NCBI RefSeq assembly: GCF_003413745.1
Contig: NZ_QVID01000002.1
Location: 558,001-622,000, forward strand
DNA from: Marixanthomonas ophiurae
GTDB lineage: Bacteria; Bacteroidota; Bacteroidia; Flavobacteriales; Flavobacteriaceae
Reading direction: 5' to 3'
Length of the DNA: 64,000 nucleotides
In this document: positions 5,796 through 14,141 of the stretch, in pieces
How the letters are laid out: every line of letters begins with the position of its first letter
Position numbering within the stretch: the stretch's first letter is position 1
Notes under the pieces: generated by a model
Seen by the model: only the letters and a program-made list of their open reading frames with translations
The model's database searches: none
What the model was told of the DNA's origin: nothing
Position numbers and translations under genes: made by a program

Positions 5796-7097
5796 ATGAA
5801 GAAACTGGCTTTACACTGGCAAATTTTATTAGGAATGGCACTTGGGGTTGTTTTCGCCCTTTTATTAACCAATTTTGGCTGGGGACCTGGTTTTATTGAA
5901 GATTGGGTAAAACCTTTCGGAACCATATTCATAAACGCCTTAAAGTTAATCGCCGTACCATTAATCCTTGCTTCTTTAATTAAGGGAGTTTCTGACTTAA
6001 AAGATATTTCCAGTCTATCGCAAATGGGGTTACGTACTATTATAACCTATGTAATTACTACGGTAATTGCCGTATCCATTGGATTGGGAGTTGTTAATTT
6101 GGTAAAACCAGGAAAGACTATTACTGAAGAAACTCGTTCTGAATTAGTGGAAGCGTACGGGGGTGAAGCTGAAATGAAACGACAGGATGCGCAGCGTCAA
6201 AAAGATGCAGGTCCATTACAAGCCTTGGAGGATTTAGTACCTGATAATATAATTGGGGCTTCTTCCAGTAACCGAAACATGCTTCAAGTAATATTCTTTG
6301 CTATTTTCTTTGGAATAGGATTGATATTAATTCCTGAAAAAACAGCAAAACCCGTAAAAGATTTTTTCGATGGCTTTAATGAAGTCATCCTCAAAATGAT
6401 TGATCTTATCATGTTAACCGCTCCCTATGGTGTTTTTGCTTTATTGGCAGCTTTAGTGGTGGAAGCCCCAAGTGCCGATCTTTTTGCGGCATTAGGAATG
6501 TATGCATTGTGTGTTGTTGGCGGACTAGCCTTAATGATTGGAGTATATATTTTATTGGTATGGACATTTACAAGACATACGCCAAAGAGTTTCCTTAACG
6601 GAATTGGCCCAGCTCAATTATTAGCATTCTCAACAAGCTCGAGTGCTGCAACCCTACCAGTGACTATGGAACGGGTAGAAGAACATTTAGGAGTAAAGCG
6701 TGAGGTAACCAGTTTTGTATTACCAATTGGAGCCACAATTAATATGGATGGAACCAGTTTATACCAAGCTGTAGCAGCTGTATTTATTGCACAAGCCTTT
6801 GGGATGGATCTTTCTTTTGGAACCCAACTAGGAATTATCGCAACCGCAACCTTGGCTTCTATAGGTTCTGCTGCCGTGCCAGGTGCTGGGATGGTGATGC
6901 TGGTAATTGTATTGGCACAAGCTGGAATTCCTGAAGCTGGTCTTGCACTAATTTTTGCCATTGATAGACCCTTAGATATGTGTCGTACCACGGTAAATGT
7001 TACAGGTGATGCTGCCGTTTCTATGATGGTTGCAAAGTCGCAAGGCAAATTAGGCGTTCCACAAGTCAAGGATTGGGATGATAATTATAAGAAATAG
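5796..7097 (+). CDS. Dicarboxylate/amino acid:cation symporter (DAACS family)
   Basis: A 433-residue inner-membrane symporter of the glutamate/aspartate/C4-dicarboxylate family (GltP, GltT, DctA relatives). The first hydrophobic segments begin near residue 8. Diagnostic blocks of the transport core are present: the serine-rich re-entrant loop STSSSAATLPVT near residue 280, the NMDGTSLY motif near residue 315 that builds the cation site, and DRPLDMCRTTVNVTGDA near residue 385, where the Asp and Arg bind the substrate amino and side-chain carboxyl groups. The Arg in this last block favours an acidic substrate such as glutamate, aspartate or a C4-dicarboxylate; the choice among these and between H+ and Na+ coupling cannot be made here. 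A charged insertion at residues 115-140 sits in a cytosolic or periplasmic loop. Confidence 0.93.
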   Translation: MKKLALHWQILLGMALGVVFALLLTNFGWGPGFIEDWVKPFGTIFINALKLIAVPLILASLIKGVSDLKDISSLSQMGLRTIITYVITTVIAVSIGLGVVNLVKPGKTITEETRSELVEAYGGEAEMKRQDAQRQKDAGPLQALEDLVPDNIIGASSSNRNMLQVIFFAIFFGIGLILIPEKTAKPVKDFFDGFNEVILKMIDLIMLTAPYGVFALLAALVVEAPSADLFAALGMYALCVVGGLALMIGVYILLVWTFTRHTPKSFLNGIGPAQLLAFSTSSSAATLPVTMERVEEHLGVKREVTSFVLPIGATINMDGTSLYQAVAAVFIAQAFGMDLSFGTQLGIIATATLASIGSAAVPGAGMVMLVIVLAQAGIPEAGLALIFAIDRPLDMCRTTVNVTGDAAVSMMVAKSQGKLGVPQVKDWDDNYKK

Positions 7098-8088: not shown

Positions 8089-8176
8089 GCATATTGAAAT
8101 CACTATCTTTTATATTATTTCCTTTCAACTTACCACATAATTAGTATATTTAAAATACTAATTAAAATTGAACCTC

Positions 8177-9205
8177 ATGAACGTTTGCTTTATCATGTAT
8201 CCTTGGGATGAAATAGATCCTGAAAATGACTCAACCTTAGCATTAATAAAAGAATTTGCCAAGCGAGGCCACGGCATAGTCACGACAACGCCAGCTAATT
8301 TGACGATTCGCGATAGCGTTGCTTTTGCTTTTTCAAGATGTTTAAAGCGAAAAGATAAATTGCCTAAAGGACTAAAAGCGTTTCACAAAAATGCTGAGTT
8401 TTACGACGAGATGTTGCCTATGGCAGGTTTTGATGTAATCATCCTTCGTAGTAACCCTCCGTTAGATATGATTATGCTTAACTTTTTAGATTCCGTCAAG
8501 GATGATGTATTTATCATGAATGATCTCGATGGAATTCGCCGTGCAAATAATAAACTTTACACGGCTGTTTTTGAGGACGAAAACAACGAGATGATTCCGC
8601 GAACGCACGTAACCAAAAATAAACAATATCTAAAAAATATTATTAAAGAAGGCCCTGATCGTATGATTTTAAAACCTCTAAATGGTTTTGGAGGCTCCGG
8701 GGTGATTTTAATTGAAAAAAGTGCCATGAAGAGTATTAACTCTTTACTTGATTTTTATATAGACAATAAAGATGGAACTTCAAACTACGTAATTTTACAA
8801 GACTATATTGAAGGAGCCGATCAAGGCGATGTTCGTATTTTGCTGTTAAACGGCCAACCTATTGGTGCGATGCGACGTGTACCGGGTGATGAAGATCATA
8901 GAAGTAATGTAAGCGCTGGGGGTAGTGTACAAAAACATACGTTAAGTAAACAAGAAAAAGAACTATGCCGTCGTATTGGTCCTAAACTAGTGAAAGATGG
9001 ATTGTATTTTGTTGGTATCGATGTAATTGGCGGAAAGCTTGTTGAAGTAAATGTAATGTCTCCTGGCGGAATAACCTATATTAATAAAGTGTATAAAACG
9101 AAAGTACAAGAAAAAATCATCGATTTTGTAGAAGATAAGGTGTTAGAACGTGTTAGTGCTTTTGAACGCCGCCAAAAACTTCGTAAACATGTAAGTGATG
9201 CGTAA
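8177..9205 (+). CDS. GshB-like ATP-grasp ligase
   Basis: A 342-residue ATP-grasp enzyme closest in pattern to prokaryotic glutathione synthetase. Visible blocks: LKPLNGFGGSGVILIEKS (ATP-binding lysine and glycine loop, near residue 165), LQDYIEGADQGDVRILLLN, SNVSAGGSVQKHTLS, and FVGIDVIGGKLVEVNVMSPG, where Asp, Glu and Asn bind the metal ions. ATP-grasp ligases join a carboxylate to an amine through an acyl phosphate. No GshA is present and the two downstream genes are not glutathione genes, so a peptide or amino acid ligase with another substrate is at least as likely. An in-frame TTG at 8168 would add three residues; the ATG at 8177 is preferred. The stop overlaps the next ATG (TAATG), so translation is coupled. 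Confidence 0.88.
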   Translation: MNVCFIMYPWDEIDPENDSTLALIKEFAKRGHGIVTTTPANLTIRDSVAFAFSRCLKRKDKLPKGLKAFHKNAEFYDEMLPMAGFDVIILRSNPPLDMIMLNFLDSVKDDVFIMNDLDGIRRANNKLYTAVFEDENNEMIPRTHVTKNKQYLKNIIKEGPDRMILKPLNGFGGSGVILIEKSAMKSINSLLDFYIDNKDGTSNYVILQDYIEGADQGDVRILLLNGQPIGAMRRVPGDEDHRSNVSAGGSVQKHTLSKQEKELCRRIGPKLVKDGLYFVGIDVIGGKLVEVNVMSPGGITYINKVYKTKVQEKIIDFVEDKVLERVSAFERRQKLRKHVSDA

Positions 9206-10035
9206 TGGAAAGATTAGCTGTTTCAGAAATCATTAAAAAAATTGAGGCGGAAGCACCATTTGAAGCCGTCGCTGAAGATTACTCATTCACCTTAAAGATT
9301 GACGAATACGTGCCTTACGTTTGTGGTGCTGTGCACGATGGGCATCAATTTAGAAAAGAGTTATGGGAAAACTGTATTCATACGGAATATGAACGTTGGT
9401 TTGAAGAAGATCCTTGTACCAAAGAGTTTATAAAAACGCATCCTATTGTAATTGCTGGTTGCGATAGTAGGTTTGAATATGACCTGAATCGCGATCCAGA
9501 TAATGCGATATTCGATTTAGCTTGGGGGAAACAATTGTGGAAAGAACCTTTGAGCCCTTCAGAAAAAAAACAAAGCCTTGAAAAACATACTGAATTTTAT
9601 TCGGTAGTTCATGCCCTGATATCAAAACTAGAAGAAAAGTTCGGCACTATTGTGGTGTATGATATGCATAGCTATAATTGGCGTCGATGGGATAGGGAAG
9701 TGCCAGTAATTAATTTAGGCACTTCAAATGTTGACAATGATCGTTTTGGTGACTTAGTTGAAAGCTGGCGAAAATCTTTATCAGAATTACAATTGCCACA
9801 CGACATAAAAGCTACTTCAAAAATTAACGATACCTTTTTCGGAAATGGTTATTTTTTGAAATTCATCACCCAGAATTTTAAAAATACGTTAGTTTTGGCA
9901 ACTGAATTCAAGAAAATTTATTGTGACGAACTACGAGAATTGATCTACCCTGAAGTAGTTTCAGCCATTGAACAACAGCTTCAGCAGAAAGTTAAAGAAC
10001 ACGCTACGTTGTTTTACAATACGTTTAATAAATAA
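9205..10035 (+). CDS. N-formylglutamate amidohydrolase family protein
   Basis: A 276-residue member of the N-formylglutamate amidohydrolase (FGase, PF05013) fold, a zinc carboxypeptidase-like hydrolase. Motifs that match the family are VHDGHQFR near residue 40, GCDSRFEYDLNRDPDN near residue 85, and VYDMHSYNWRR near residue 150. The histidine-utilisation genes that normally accompany a true HutG are absent. It lies inside a three-gene unit with a GshB-like ligase (1-bp overlap) and a QEGLA metallopeptidase (1-bp gap), so its substrate is more likely the product or precursor of those enzymes, for instance a C-terminal or N-acyl glutamyl bond. That assignment is inference; the fold is well supported. 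Confidence 0.88.
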   Translation: MERLAVSEIIKKIEAEAPFEAVAEDYSFTLKIDEYVPYVCGAVHDGHQFRKELWENCIHTEYERWFEEDPCTKEFIKTHPIVIAGCDSRFEYDLNRDPDNAIFDLAWGKQLWKEPLSPSEKKQSLEKHTEFYSVVHALISKLEEKFGTIVVYDMHSYNWRRWDREVPVINLGTSNVDNDRFGDLVESWRKSLSELQLPHDIKATSKINDTFFGNGYFLKFITQNFKNTLVLATEFKKIYCDELRELIYPEVVSAIEQQLQQKVKEHATLFYNTFNK

Positions 10036-10036
10036 T

Positions 10037-11200
10037 ATGACGCATACACAAGCTATTATCGATTCATATCCCAATCTTTTCAGGATTGATTATAATTTGA
10101 ATAAACTGGTTCAAAAAATAGAGGTGTTGAACTTTGTTAACCCTATTAATATTGAACAAGAAAAGCGTAATTTCTTTTCTTCAAAATACAATGTAAACCC
10201 TAACTTTAAGTATCGAAAACTTGATTTTAATGCACACAAACTACAGCAAGAACTTTTTTCGCAAGATATTGATAGTATTAAAGATGAAGAGACCCGTGCT
10301 TTTTATAGAGAAGTAATTTATGATTATTCAGGGTTGGTTCAATGTGTGGAAACCGTAGGGCAAAAAGAGAAGTTTTATTTCAATTCGCTAAAATCATTTG
10401 GTACACCTACTGAAAAAGATGTTGATAATGCACGTTTTATTCTTCATTTTGAAGATGAAGCATATAATCAAGAAATGATTCCTGTGTTTAATGCTAACGA
10501 AGCAGCTGAATATTTTGAGGACTTTACCAAACAGTACGACTTTCAGTTCAACATTAAGCTTTCCAACAAGATTTCAGCTGCTGCTATGGTTTTAAATAAC
10601 AAGCAAACCTTAGTACTTAAAAAAAATCATCGTTTTAGCGCAAACCAATTAAAAGTATTAGCCAATCACGAAATAGGTGTACATCTGGTCACTACTTTTA
10701 ATAGTTTAAATCAGCCGCTTAAAATTTTCCACAATGGCTTTCCAAAAAACGTAGAAACACAAGAAGGATTAGCTGTTTTTAGCGAATACATGAGCGGATG
10801 TTTAACCCTATATCGTTTAAAAGAATTGAGCTACCGCGTGTTGGCGACCGATAGTTTACGAAAAGGTTTTAATTTTTGTGACACGTTCGATTTGTTACAC
10901 AATCAATACAAGCTCAAGAGGGAAGAGGCCTACAATATAACCCTGCGTGCTCATCGAGGAGGAGGTTTTACAAAAGATCACTTATACCTTACTGGTTTAA
11001 AGAAAGTGTATAGTCTGTATCAAAAAGAAGCTTCATTAGACAACCTTTTAGCAGGAAAAGTCACTTTAGAGAATGAATCTATAATTCAAAACTGGAAACA
11101 GGAAGGGTTGGCATACGAAAACAGGTATAAGAACTTTGCTTTTGATAATAACGAGAACACGAATTCCAAACTCGATTTTATTCTTCAGAATTTAAAATAA
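10037..11200 (+). CDS. QEGLA-motif DUF1704 / MATCAP-like metallopeptidase
   Basis: A 387-residue protein named in databases as 'flavohemoglobin expression-modulating QEGLA motif protein' (DUF1704). It has the zincin-like metal site HEIGVH at residues 211-216 and the name-giving QEGLA at 242-246, whose Glu243 is the likely third ligand. The family includes the animal MATCAP enzymes, which remove the C-terminal tyrosine of tubulin, so a carboxypeptidase-type activity is expected; the bacterial substrate is unknown. No signal peptide or membrane segment is seen, so it is cytosolic. The ATG at 10037 follows the previous stop by 1 bp; a longer reading from 9968 would overlap the upstream gene by 68 bp and is less likely. 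An oppositely oriented terminator begins at the stop codon. Confidence 0.88.
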   Translation: MTHTQAIIDSYPNLFRIDYNLNKLVQKIEVLNFVNPINIEQEKRNFFSSKYNVNPNFKYRKLDFNAHKLQQELFSQDIDSIKDEETRAFYREVIYDYSGLVQCVETVGQKEKFYFNSLKSFGTPTEKDVDNARFILHFEDEAYNQEMIPVFNANEAAEYFEDFTKQYDFQFNIKLSNKISAAAMVLNNKQTLVLKKNHRFSANQLKVLANHEIGVHLVTTFNSLNQPLKIFHNGFPKNVETQEGLAVFSEYMSGCLTLYRLKELSYRVLATDSLRKGFNFCDTFDLLHNQYKLKREEAYNITLRAHRGGGFTKDHLYLTGLKKVYSLYQKEASLDNLLAGKVTLENESIIQNWKQEGLAYENRYKNFAFDNNENTNSKLDFILQNLK

Positions 11201-11226
11201 AAAAAGCGGACAGTTTCCTGCCCGCT
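11194..11226 (-). terminator. Terminator of the large T9SS protein gene
   Basis: On the minus strand, AGCGGGCAG (11218-11226) pairs with CTGTCCGCT (11205-11213) with one mismatch, and is followed by T-rich sequence (11194-11204). It ends the gene at 11262-14141 and may also work on the plus strand at the end of the QEGLA gene. Confidence 0.75.
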
Positions 11227-11261: not shown

Positions 11262-14141
11262 TTACTGTTTAATAATTTTATAGGTTCCTGTTTCACCATT
11301 AACAACCACTTTTAAAATATAAGTACCGGCTGATAAGCTTGATATAGAAAGCTCAGATTTTGTATTTTCTATACTTTGATCAATCACTTTTTGCCCTAAT
11401 AGGTTATAAACCGTTGCACGCTCAATGGTTTCCGTAGCGTTTAAGTTTACAACACCTGTGGTTGGGTTAGGGAAGTAGGTAAATCCTTCGATTGTATTTT
11501 CGCTTGTACTTAATAATGTGCCGTCTATCTCTATATCGGTTGTACCGCCAGTATTTACTACAAATATGTAGTATGCTTGTCCGGCAGTAGTTGTAATAGA
11601 AGAAGACGTTGCTGGTGAGCATTGGTTGGTTCCTTGGTTTACCAATGTAAGGTCTGTTTCAGAAGCATTCTCATTGGGTGCTTCAAAGAACGTTACCACA
11701 CTTGTTCCTGCAGGATCTACAATGCTCGCTGTGGCTTCTCCATCTCCATTAGACACAAAGTTGTACCACACACCGTTGGCACCTTGAAGATTACACCCGG
11801 TTGGGTTACCCCCTTCAGTAGTTGCCGCTGGCATTGGCACTGCAGCATCACTGTAAGGAAAACCTATTTCGTCTACATCTATAGAGTTGGAAATCATATC
11901 ATTTGCTGGAGGAACGGGAGTACAATCTACAGTTAATGTAAAGTTTCCAGTATTGGTTCCAAATCCGTGTACTAAAATATAATAGGTTGTGTTTCCATCT
12001 CCTTGGAAATTTGCTTCAGATTGTAGCCCACAGGAATCATCATTATCGGTTTCACAAATTAAATTACCACAATCACCTGTGTAAACGGTTACTTTGGTAT
12101 CGTAATCTGAATCACAAAGCGAAACGGTATAATCTGTTACCAATCCACTATCGTCTGTAAAGGTATACCAAAGACCTGGTGCTGTAATATCTGTATTACA
12201 AACAGGAGCATCAACGTCTATTGTTGCGTCATCTGTTGATCCTGTAATGCTTTCGCCACAGCTAATTGGTAAAGCTCCACTACAAATATCGTTTTCGGGT
12301 AATTCTTCACAAGAAACCTCTAAGCTGAAATTTCCAGCTTCAGATTCAAATCCTTCAACCATAATATAGTAAGTTGAAATACCATCAGATACAAAAGAAA
12401 CTTCAGATTGCTCGCCACAAGAATCATCATTCATAGCGATTTCGTTTGTTAAGGTACAGTCTTCATAAACACGAAGAACAGAGTTAAAGTCTGTATTGTT
12501 ACATAGTGATATAGTTACCTCCTCTAAAGTACCATTACCTGTATAAGTGTAAAACTCATCAGGGGCAGCATTACCACCAGAGTCGGAATCAGAAACTGTT
12601 TCACCGTTTACCACATCGCCACAAGAAACCGCCACTGCATTTTCACAACTGTCGTTACCTGTGTTAATGGTAGAATAGCGAGAAACATAAATATCCCGGT
12701 TCCCGTTACTTGTTTGAACATCTTCTCCTGAAAAAGGATTTAAATCAACACTATCTTGAAACGCACCTATTGCTATTATTTGATCATTATCATTAAAAAG
12801 AACCTGTTGGTTACTTTCTGCACTTGAGCCACCAATGGTCCAGTGGTTTCTGTACACACCAGAAGTACTCAATTCTACCAAGAAGTTATCGCTATTTCCG
12901 TTTGAAGTAACAATAGCCTCTCCCGAACTACTATCAAAATCACTAGTTCCTATAAAATTTCCAGAAATGAATAAGCTTCCTGTTGGACCTTCAATAATAT
13001 CAAATATATTCTCTAAGTTTTCATTTCCTTCACCACCCGTAACATAAGAATAGTCGTAATTTCCATCGGTATCGAATTTTGAAAAGAACGCATCAAAATC
13101 ACCATTTGATGTTACGTTGTTTTCACCCGCAGTAGGATCGAGATCTACAGTGCCAGAAAACATTCCAGTAGCATAAATTCCAGATTGTAATACCTTAATG
13201 GTAGCTGGAATCTCTAATCCTGTACCACCAAAAGTTTGACCCCAAATATAATTTCCATCGATATCTACTTTTGTAATAAAAGCATCATCTGTTCCATTCG
13301 AAATATAATTGTCTACATCGGTACCAGTATCAAGGTCTACTTGATTTCTAAACCTACCTAAAACGAAAAGATCTTCATTGGCGTCGAATTCTATACTCTC
13401 TACTTCTACAATACCACCAGCCCCTTCATGCGTTTTTACCCACTGGTAATTACCGTCCGAATCAAGTTTTAGTAAAAATCCATCTGGTGTTTGTGAATCT
13501 GCAGAGAACAGGGTCACATCATTATTAGGGTCTGGGTCAAAATCAGCATATAAAAATGAACCGCCAATGTAAATATCCCCATTACTGTCTAAAGCTATGG
13601 TTTGTGCATCTTCGTTGATAGGTCCAAAGCCTGCTGGGTTGCTTATTTGTTTTGCCCATACAAACTCTTTATTGCTGTCTAATTTAATAACAAAAAGATC
13701 TCTACTTAGACCATTTGCTGGCTGTAATAAAGGAAATACATCTGGACCCGGATCAGCATCAAACGGATTGTTTGGGTTTGCTCCTTGAAAATACCCAGTA
13801 AGGTAGATGTTGTCGTCGGCATCGATTGCAACGTCAATAACGACATCGTCAAAACCACCGCCAAAGCCTAATACTCCGGTAGGGTTTCCGTCACTATCAT
13901 GTATAGCTAAATACCCATCTGCGTTACCACCAGCCCAGTTTATAGTGTTGGGGCCTAACGTAATAGATCCAGAATATAACCCAGGTGTATAAATATTCCC
14001 ATTGCTGTCAACAGCCGAATGGAACGAATTCTCGATACTCATATCCCCAAAAGTAGTGGTACCAAAATACTCTTGTGCTGATACCATACTGCTTACAAGC
14101 AATACTTGTAATAAAAGCACAGTTTTTGTAATTTTTTTCAT
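11262..14141 (-). CDS. Large secreted T9SS protein with SBBP-type propeller repeats and CBM/PPC-like domains
   Basis: A 959-residue exported protein. Residues 1-22 are a signal peptide (cut after MVSA). Residues 25-490 carry repeats of the SBBP/beta-propeller type, each with a DSNGDIYI- or DSDGNYQW-like strand and FDPDPNND or LDPTAGENN loops. Three Cys-containing beta modules follow (starting near residues 497, 617 and 745), each opening with a 'ND.C..A..ISCG' pattern as in pre-peptidase C-terminal modules. The last 80 residues (TYFPNPTTGVVNLN ... YILKVVVNGETG) are a type A T9SS sorting domain, so the protein is exported through the outer membrane and anchored or released. It has its own terminator. 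An adhesin or sensing role is possible but not shown. Confidence 0.9.
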   Translation of the reverse strand: MKKITKTVLLLQVLLVSSMVSAQEYFGTTTFGDMSIENSFHSAVDSNGNIYTPGLYSGSITLGPNTINWAGGNADGYLAIHDSDGNPTGVLGFGGGFDDVVIDVAIDADDNIYLTGYFQGANPNNPFDADPGPDVFPLLQPANGLSRDLFVIKLDSNKEFVWAKQISNPAGFGPINEDAQTIALDSNGDIYIGGSFLYADFDPDPNNDVTLFSADSQTPDGFLLKLDSDGNYQWVKTHEGAGGIVEVESIEFDANEDLFVLGRFRNQVDLDTGTDVDNYISNGTDDAFITKVDIDGNYIWGQTFGGTGLEIPATIKVLQSGIYATGMFSGTVDLDPTAGENNVTSNGDFDAFFSKFDTDGNYDYSYVTGGEGNENLENIFDIIEGPTGSLFISGNFIGTSDFDSSSGEAIVTSNGNSDNFLVELSTSGVYRNHWTIGGSSAESNQQVLFNDNDQIIAIGAFQDSVDLNPFSGEDVQTSNGNRDIYVSRYSTINTGNDSCENAVAVSCGDVVNGETVSDSDSGGNAAPDEFYTYTGNGTLEEVTISLCNNTDFNSVLRVYEDCTLTNEIAMNDDSCGEQSEVSFVSDGISTYYIMVEGFESEAGNFSLEVSCEELPENDICSGALPISCGESITGSTDDATIDVDAPVCNTDITAPGLWYTFTDDSGLVTDYTVSLCDSDYDTKVTVYTGDCGNLICETDNDDSCGLQSEANFQGDGNTTYYILVHGFGTNTGNFTLTVDCTPVPPANDMISNSIDVDEIGFPYSDAAVPMPAATTEGGNPTGCNLQGANGVWYNFVSNGDGEATASIVDPAGTSVVTFFEAPNENASETDLTLVNQGTNQCSPATSSSITTTAGQAYYIFVVNTGGTTDIEIDGTLLSTSENTIEGFTYFPNPTTGVVNLNATETIERATVYNLLGQKVIDQSIENTKSELSISSLSAGTYILKVVVNGETGTYKIIKQ

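Follow-up and report, generated by a model that had tools for sequence, protein, structure and literature searches.

A conserved unit of a GshB-like ATP-grasp ligase, an amidohydrolase-fold enzyme and a MATCAP-type carboxypeptidase in Marixanthomonas ophiurae, a candidate module of peptide metabolism

The pairing of an ATP-grasp ligase with a peptidase is already known in bacteria from RimK and RimB, which add and remove, respectively, C-terminal glutamates on the ribosomal protein S6; in this RimABK system, hybrid fusions exist and the hydrolase also influences poly-glutamate synthesis (PMC11957791). Here, we analyze a three-gene unit from a 64,000-nucleotide stretch of the genome of Marixanthomonas ophiurae (hereafter, the window), encoding a ligase similar to the glutathione synthetase GshB, an enzyme with the fold of N-formylglutamate amidohydrolases (FGase), and a zinc peptidase of the DUF1704 (QEGLA) family, to which the human tubulin carboxypeptidase MATCAP is related. 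The unit is of the same general kind, with an ATP-grasp ligase predicted to work on a C-terminus and an operon-mate peptidase that would remove residues, as in RimABK (PMC11957791), but it differs in ligase branch (GshB), in peptidase fold (RimB is a retropepsin-like aspartic protease, whereas that of the unit is of the MATCAP zinc type, and no retropepsin is present in it), and in its FGase, a partner without counterpart in RimABK. A combination of ATP-grasp and peptidase is also found in the Rlo operon (ATP-grasp RloC, retropepsin RloA), which shares with the unit a tie to hypo-osmotic stress (PMC12239564); in contrast, Rlo has a secreted retropepsin and an inactive-transglutaminase membrane protein, and neither MATCAP nor FGase. 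In the TTL/MATCAP (TMCP) tubulin cycle, an ATP-grasp ligase is likewise opposed to a gluzincin carboxypeptidase with an HExxxH motif, and the fold and motif of MATCAP are shared with the unit, which however has no tubulin, a ligase that is not of the TTL type, and an amidohydrolase within the operon.

With a probability of about 0.5, we read the unit as a module for both the synthesis and the breakdown of a single peptide-like compound, most likely a small N-acylated or gamma-linked di- or tripeptide metabolite other than glutathione. The module is widespread and has been masked by the labels "glutathione synthetase", "N-formylglutamate amidohydrolase", and "flavohemoglobin expression-modulating", and its recognition shows in what genomic setting bacterial relatives of MATCAP, the tubulin carboxypeptidase, occur. 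Among the papers searched, none linked ATP-grasp enzymes with DUF1704 or N-formylglutamate, and one mentioned QEGLA. The amidoligase survey of Iyer et al. (Mol BioSyst, 2009) reportedly lists many ATP-grasp/peptidase neighbourhoods, and may include this one.

Association and co-divergence of the three genes

In a sample of 198 Bacteroidota genomes, in which ligases were counted as PRK12458-type above 390 bits, MATCAP was present in 12 genomes and the ligase in 11, all of them within those 12 (hypergeometric probability of the overlap ~3e-17, the genomes not being independent). All the 15 ligase genes of this type were located in MATCAP clusters, and the twelfth MATCAP genome (G186, locus L024) carried a single divergent copy of MATCAP. 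Among named Flavobacteriaceae loci, 72 of 80 showed ligase, FGase, and MATCAP on one strand and in that order; thus, the possibility considered in the initial annotation, that the three genes might rarely be adjacent elsewhere, does not hold. The order FGase-MATCAP-ligase was found on megaplasmids of Rhizobiales (Sinorhizobium meliloti pSymB, Shinella, Mesorhizobium, Pararhizobium, and Aminobacter) and on a Roseateles-labelled plasmid, and in Photobacterium the gene after the ligase encodes FGase and MATCAP as one fused protein (L123, L125). No conserved gene for a target protein, precursor peptide, exporter, or other biosynthetic enzyme accompanied the unit in the neighbourhoods examined.

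The M. ophiurae genome encodes exactly three MATCAP genes, each beside one of three strong GshB-like ligases (units A to C, Table 1). Comparison of the ligase and MATCAP distance matrices for 30 operons, paralogues included, gave r = 0.94, with none of 2000 shuffles above 0.39; shared species history contributes to this value, and the three paralogous pairs within one genome nonetheless fit the pattern. Ligase and MATCAP have therefore co-diverged, type with type.

The FGase belongs to the unit on a par with the other two proteins: two groups have it fused to MATCAP, and an AstE/AspA-type amidohydrolase can replace it. The fusions were found in Bacteroidota (L027) and in Vibrionaceae (L115, L123, L125), among the latter one in Vibrio sp. 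HDW18. The AstE/AspA-type enzyme occupies the place of the FGase in unit C (L011) and in L034, and a profile search of the genome bearing the latter (G053) detected no FGase. The intact clusters with a ligase that were analysed in detail all contained either FGase or AstE, except that for unit B the FGase gene lies in unit A of the M. ophiurae genome. In addition, long MATCAP proteins carry an N-terminal domain of ~240 residues without any Pfam match, which aligned with FGases (hhalign 94%, E 1.5e-7 with a broader alignment; 53% with close FGases only) and in which the FGase catalytic residues are missing. This domain is probably a degenerate FGase domain, and the Vibrio HDW18 fusion looks like an intermediate toward it.

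Published RNA-seq data from Photobacterium damselae suggest a link between the unit and salinity. The genes A0J47_RS17020 ("glutathione synthase GshB") and A0J47_RS17025 ("QEGLA motif protein") were up 38.4-fold and 27.5-fold, respectively, in 1% vs. 3% NaCl, and the response of the former was discussed by the authors as glutathione synthesis (PMC10308900). The two genes are likely the equivalent of the ligase/MATCAP pair because of their consecutive tags, their names, and the architecture of the two other Photobacterium records mentioned above. Recognition of the unit alters the reading of transcriptomes such as this one, where the gene discussed as glutathione synthesis is among the most salt-responsive.

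Families, active sites, and structure models of the enzymes

The family calls of the initial annotation agreed with Pfam and NCBIfam for the three proteins. The ligase matched PF02955 (E 9e-56) and PF02951 (E 1e-23), and belongs to the NCBIfam subfamily PRK12458 (447 bits, cut-off 408). Its catalytic, ATP, and Mg motifs were invariant among 23 homologues, and its top sequence match in the PDB was E. coli GshB (1gsa, 5.9e-39), with which it shares fold, ATP site, and most core residues. RimK models remained far below their cut-offs in the NCBIfam profile search, and no TTL family appeared among the Pfam matches at E up to 1. The parallel with TTL and MATCAP drawn initially stands for the peptidase and fails for the ligase.

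The FGase matched PF05013 with 51 bits (cut-off 28.9, E 2e-13), and its conserved motif set is intact in an alignment of relatives. Its structure model (pLDDT 93.1) had the N-formylglutamate amidohydrolase 2q7s as top PDB match (E 9.6e-13), and M14 carboxypeptidases were matched too. In this M14-like amidohydrolase fold and motif set, the protein resembles HutG, AstE, and AspA; unlike HutG, it scored far below the corresponding model (TIGR02017, 23.1 bits, cut-off 278.75), and no hut gene lies beside the unit.

Regarding MATCAP, the match to PF08014 reached 329 bits (cut-off 27, E 3e-98), and that to the QEGLA equivalog TIGR02421 stayed at 312 bits, below its cut-off of 338.65, which is exceeded by the members from Photobacterium and Sinorhizobium. 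The HEIGVH motif and the Glu of QEGLA are kept in all the short-type relatives, and in a wider set HExxxH/QEG is invariant (H211, E212, H216, and E243 in the window protein). Residues E212 and E243 align with E281 and E316 of human TMCP1/MATCAP, both required by this enzyme, which is also able to deglutamylate (PMC10499314). Structural comparison, as proposed initially, confirmed the likeness to MATCAP: the AlphaFold model (pLDDT 91.7) had human MATCAP 7z5g as its top PDB match by Foldseek (E 1.3e-8, TM 0.59-0.68), followed by M32 carboxypeptidases. The fold and active site are those of a MATCAP-type zinc peptidase, for which C-terminal carboxypeptidase activity is predicted.

Candidate function and alternative explanations

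A cycle of ligase, carboxypeptidase, and amidohydrolase is well supported. In the proposed scheme, the ligase would extend a small acceptor at its C-terminal carboxylate with an amino acid, following the chemistry of GshB and RimK; MATCAP would take off that C-terminal residue; and the acidic amino acid left over would be freed of its blocking amide through hydrolysis by the FGase or, in the third unit, by AstE/AspA. The level of the metabolite may be tuned to conditions, salinity at least in Photobacterium, and the paralogous units could act on related but distinct peptides. A small N-blocked or gamma-linked peptide is preferred over a protein terminus because the known relatives of this amidohydrolase, FGase, AstE, and AspA, act on N-acyl amino acids, and because no target gene accompanies the unit; the FGase fusions and the AstE/AspA replacement argue in the same direction. 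The substrate becomes searchable by genetics and metabolomics in Sinorhizobium meliloti, a laboratory strain that is easily handled and has the unit on pSymB.

Several observations weigh against this interpretation. In seven genomes (four of Arenibacter, Maribacter flavus, Flagellimonas hadalis, and Croceivirga radicis), MATCAP is found at the same place and with an intact site, whereas neither a PRK12458-type ligase nor any FGase is present genome-wide; MATCAP is thus of use without a writer in these genomes, and strict coupling is not universal. Since the full trio is present in relatives of these strains within Flagellimonas and Croceivirga, the two genes missing from them, ligase and FGase, probably disappeared jointly, and more than once. 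The tie between ligase and FGase is thus at least as tight as that between ligase and MATCAP. Furthermore, a standalone MATCAP subfamily of ~425 aa occurs without ligase in a Bacteroidota genome (L024, 7431-8705) and on a Pseudoalteromonas megaplasmid (L124, 5968-7248). In the FGase domain of the Vibrio HDW18 fusion, a conserved His is missing, with DMYAYN in place of DMHSYN, which suggests that FGase catalysis is perhaps dispensable in some lineages. Finally, the adjacency of the two P. damselae genes is read from their consecutive locus tags.

Among the alternatives, the best placed is the writer/eraser cycle on a protein terminus put forward in the initial annotation, in which a protein C-terminus receives an amino acid from the ligase and loses it again to MATCAP. 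We consider it possible but unlikely. The fold and motifs of the peptidase match those of the human detyrosinase, including the two essential glutamates of an enzyme that removes glutamate as well (PMC10499314), and with RimK/RimB bacteria have an established pair of ATP-grasp ligase and protease working at the C-terminus of a protein (PMC11957791). However, the ligase falls within the GshB branch, and the members of this branch that are known use dipeptides; the neighbourhoods lack a conserved target-protein gene; the FGase or AstE is left unexplained; and seven genomes have MATCAP and no ligase. Of the initial proposal, the cycle itself fits the pairing of a zinc carboxypeptidase with a ligase predicted to extend C-termini, and nothing found establishes a protein terminus as its substrate. 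A more elaborate form of this idea is bacterial protein-terminus tagging, with the GshB-like ligase writing and MATCAP erasing a C-terminal residue, and with the FGase acting on an N-blocked acceptor; the peptidase half of tubulin detyrosination would then have its bacterial root here. This form appears decidedly unlikely.

One-way biosynthesis would be served by the same gene set, with MATCAP and FGase trimming a precursor and the ligase capping it to yield a secreted or stored peptide without any cycle. The position of the hydrolases upstream of the ligase in the Rhizobiales operons and the lineage-specific insertion of rhodanese/MST-like and TerB-like genes into the operon (see below) are consistent with it, but genes for a precursor peptide, an exporter, or further biosynthetic steps do not accompany the unit in a conserved way, and the strong co-conservation of hydrolases and ligase takes place without further pathway genes, which makes this explanation rather unlikely.

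Ordinary glutathione metabolism, with the ligase as glutathione synthetase and with FGase and MATCAP breaking down glutathione or its conjugates, is improbable. PRK12458 is named "glutathione synthetase" in NCBIfam, the ligase passes the glutathione-synthase cut-off of PRK05246 (286.9 vs. 272), and the GshB-core residues are mostly conserved, but the equivalog TIGR01380 remains below its cut-off (244.7 vs. 299), and each of the 23 relatives has SPGG or SPGA where E. coli GshB has SPTC. Unlike E. coli GshB, the ligase is also always paired with MATCAP, here in a genome without GshA. The initial annotation had noted the absence of glutathione genes nearby and allowed for a normal glutathione synthetase with GshA encoded elsewhere; in a profile search of the whole genome (99.75% complete), neither class of GshA (PF04107, PF04262) was detected. 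There is thus no recognisable source of gamma-Glu-Cys, which argues against an ordinary glutathione pathway, and the three ligase paralogues of this genome would be redundant under it. Finally, it is hardly credible that the association reflects only shared regulation or history without a common substrate, for although aroC and a Na+/dicarboxylate (SDF) symporter gene are often adjacent as well by synteny alone (Aquimarina L066 has both together ~5 kb beyond the unit), the unit is kept across phyla with varying orders and flanks, duplicated, and fused, with mirrored trees.

Layout of the locus and neighbouring genes

The initial coordinates of the three consecutive genes were confirmed by the sequence (Table 1), as were the 1-bp overlap between ligase and FGase, where stop and start codons share the sequence TAATG, and the 1-bp gap between FGase and MATCAP. 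This spacing leaves no room within the unit for a precursor gene of the graspetide type, so the unit does not qualify as a graspetide RiPP (ribosomally synthesized and post-translationally modified peptide) locus. The ligase start lies 88 bp after the upstream stop, and 61 bp separate the MATCAP stop from the convergent gene downstream. Since seven T residues follow the hairpin located in between when read on the minus strand, this hairpin is assigned as a putative terminator of the convergent gene, marking the end of the unit. The unit is located on contig C2 of a 3.3-Mb genome, and the closest named relative in the scan was Marixanthomonas spongiae (90% identity in MATCAP).

Table 1. Features of the window and composition of the three units of the M. 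ophiurae genome
Feature	Position	Strand	Remarks
SDF symporter	5796..7097		upstream of the unit
Perfect inverted repeat	8140..8162		ATTAGTAT-7-ATACTAAT, ~14 bp upstream of ligase start
GshB-like ATP-grasp ligase, type A, 342 aa	8177..9205	+	PRK12458 subfamily, named "glutathione synthetase" elsewhere; motifs, 1gsa match; ATG 8177, TAA 9203-9205
N-formylglutamate-amidohydrolase-fold enzyme (FGase), 276 aa	9205..10035	+	HDGH 44-47, SRFEYDLNR 88-96, DMHSYN 153-158, TE 233-234; ATG 9205, stop 10033-10035
Short MATCAP/DUF1704 (QEGLA) zinc carboxypeptidase (predicted), 387 aa	10037..11200	+	HEIGVH 211-216; third ligand E243 in QEGLA; ATG 10037, stop ends 11200
Hairpin past MATCAP stop	11204..11226	.	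fold -10.5 kcal/mol; T7 after hairpin in minus-strand reading
Convergent gene	11262..14141		
Unit A (window trio)			ligase, FGase, short MATCAP
Unit B (L010)			long MATCAP 607 aa, ligase
Unit C (L011)			long MATCAP 612 aa, ligase, AstE/AspA

The inverted repeat upstream of the ligase was discarded as a conserved operator, being found only in the window and, with one change, in Marixanthomonas. The SDF symporter gene occupies the same position in many relatives and was considered as a fourth member; it was rejected, as it tracks aroC by synteny and not the unit (L066), as also reflected by Aquimarina units without SDF and by the seven ligase-less loci (L070, L073, L074, L096-L098, L103), where SDF is retained and the solitary MATCAP lies between aroC-SDF and unrelated genes. 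A standalone MATCAP beside macrodomain-like and AIM24-like genes was found in a record labelled "Pseudomonas phage Y1" (unverified; L118, OQ572403.1), but a phage-borne MATCAP was rejected, as the DNA around the match looks bacterial and is probably host DNA.

In the Winogradskyella/Formosa/Psychroserpens group, and confined to it, ligase and FGase are separated by additional genes. These encode a rhodanese whose CGSGLTA motif is MST-like, in L028 (10116-10937), in L031 (5370-6538), and in 15 of the 80 named loci, and a small TerB-like protein in 11 loci. These insertions suggest a link to sulfur or stress. Unit C is adjoined by an asnB-type asparagine synthase (L011, 10315-11985); an osmolyte system similar to that of NAGGN was considered and rejected here, as asnB was not seen beside the equivalent unit in L034. 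In addition, the M. ophiurae genome contains a second kind of ATP-grasp/peptidase cluster (L012, 6191-10054; G000:C1, ~976-980 kb), with genes encoding an AstE/AspA-like enzyme, a RimK-like ligase, a RimB-like retropepsin (its score of 63 bits is under the cut-off of the RimB model), an acetyltransferase, and a second RimK-like ligase.

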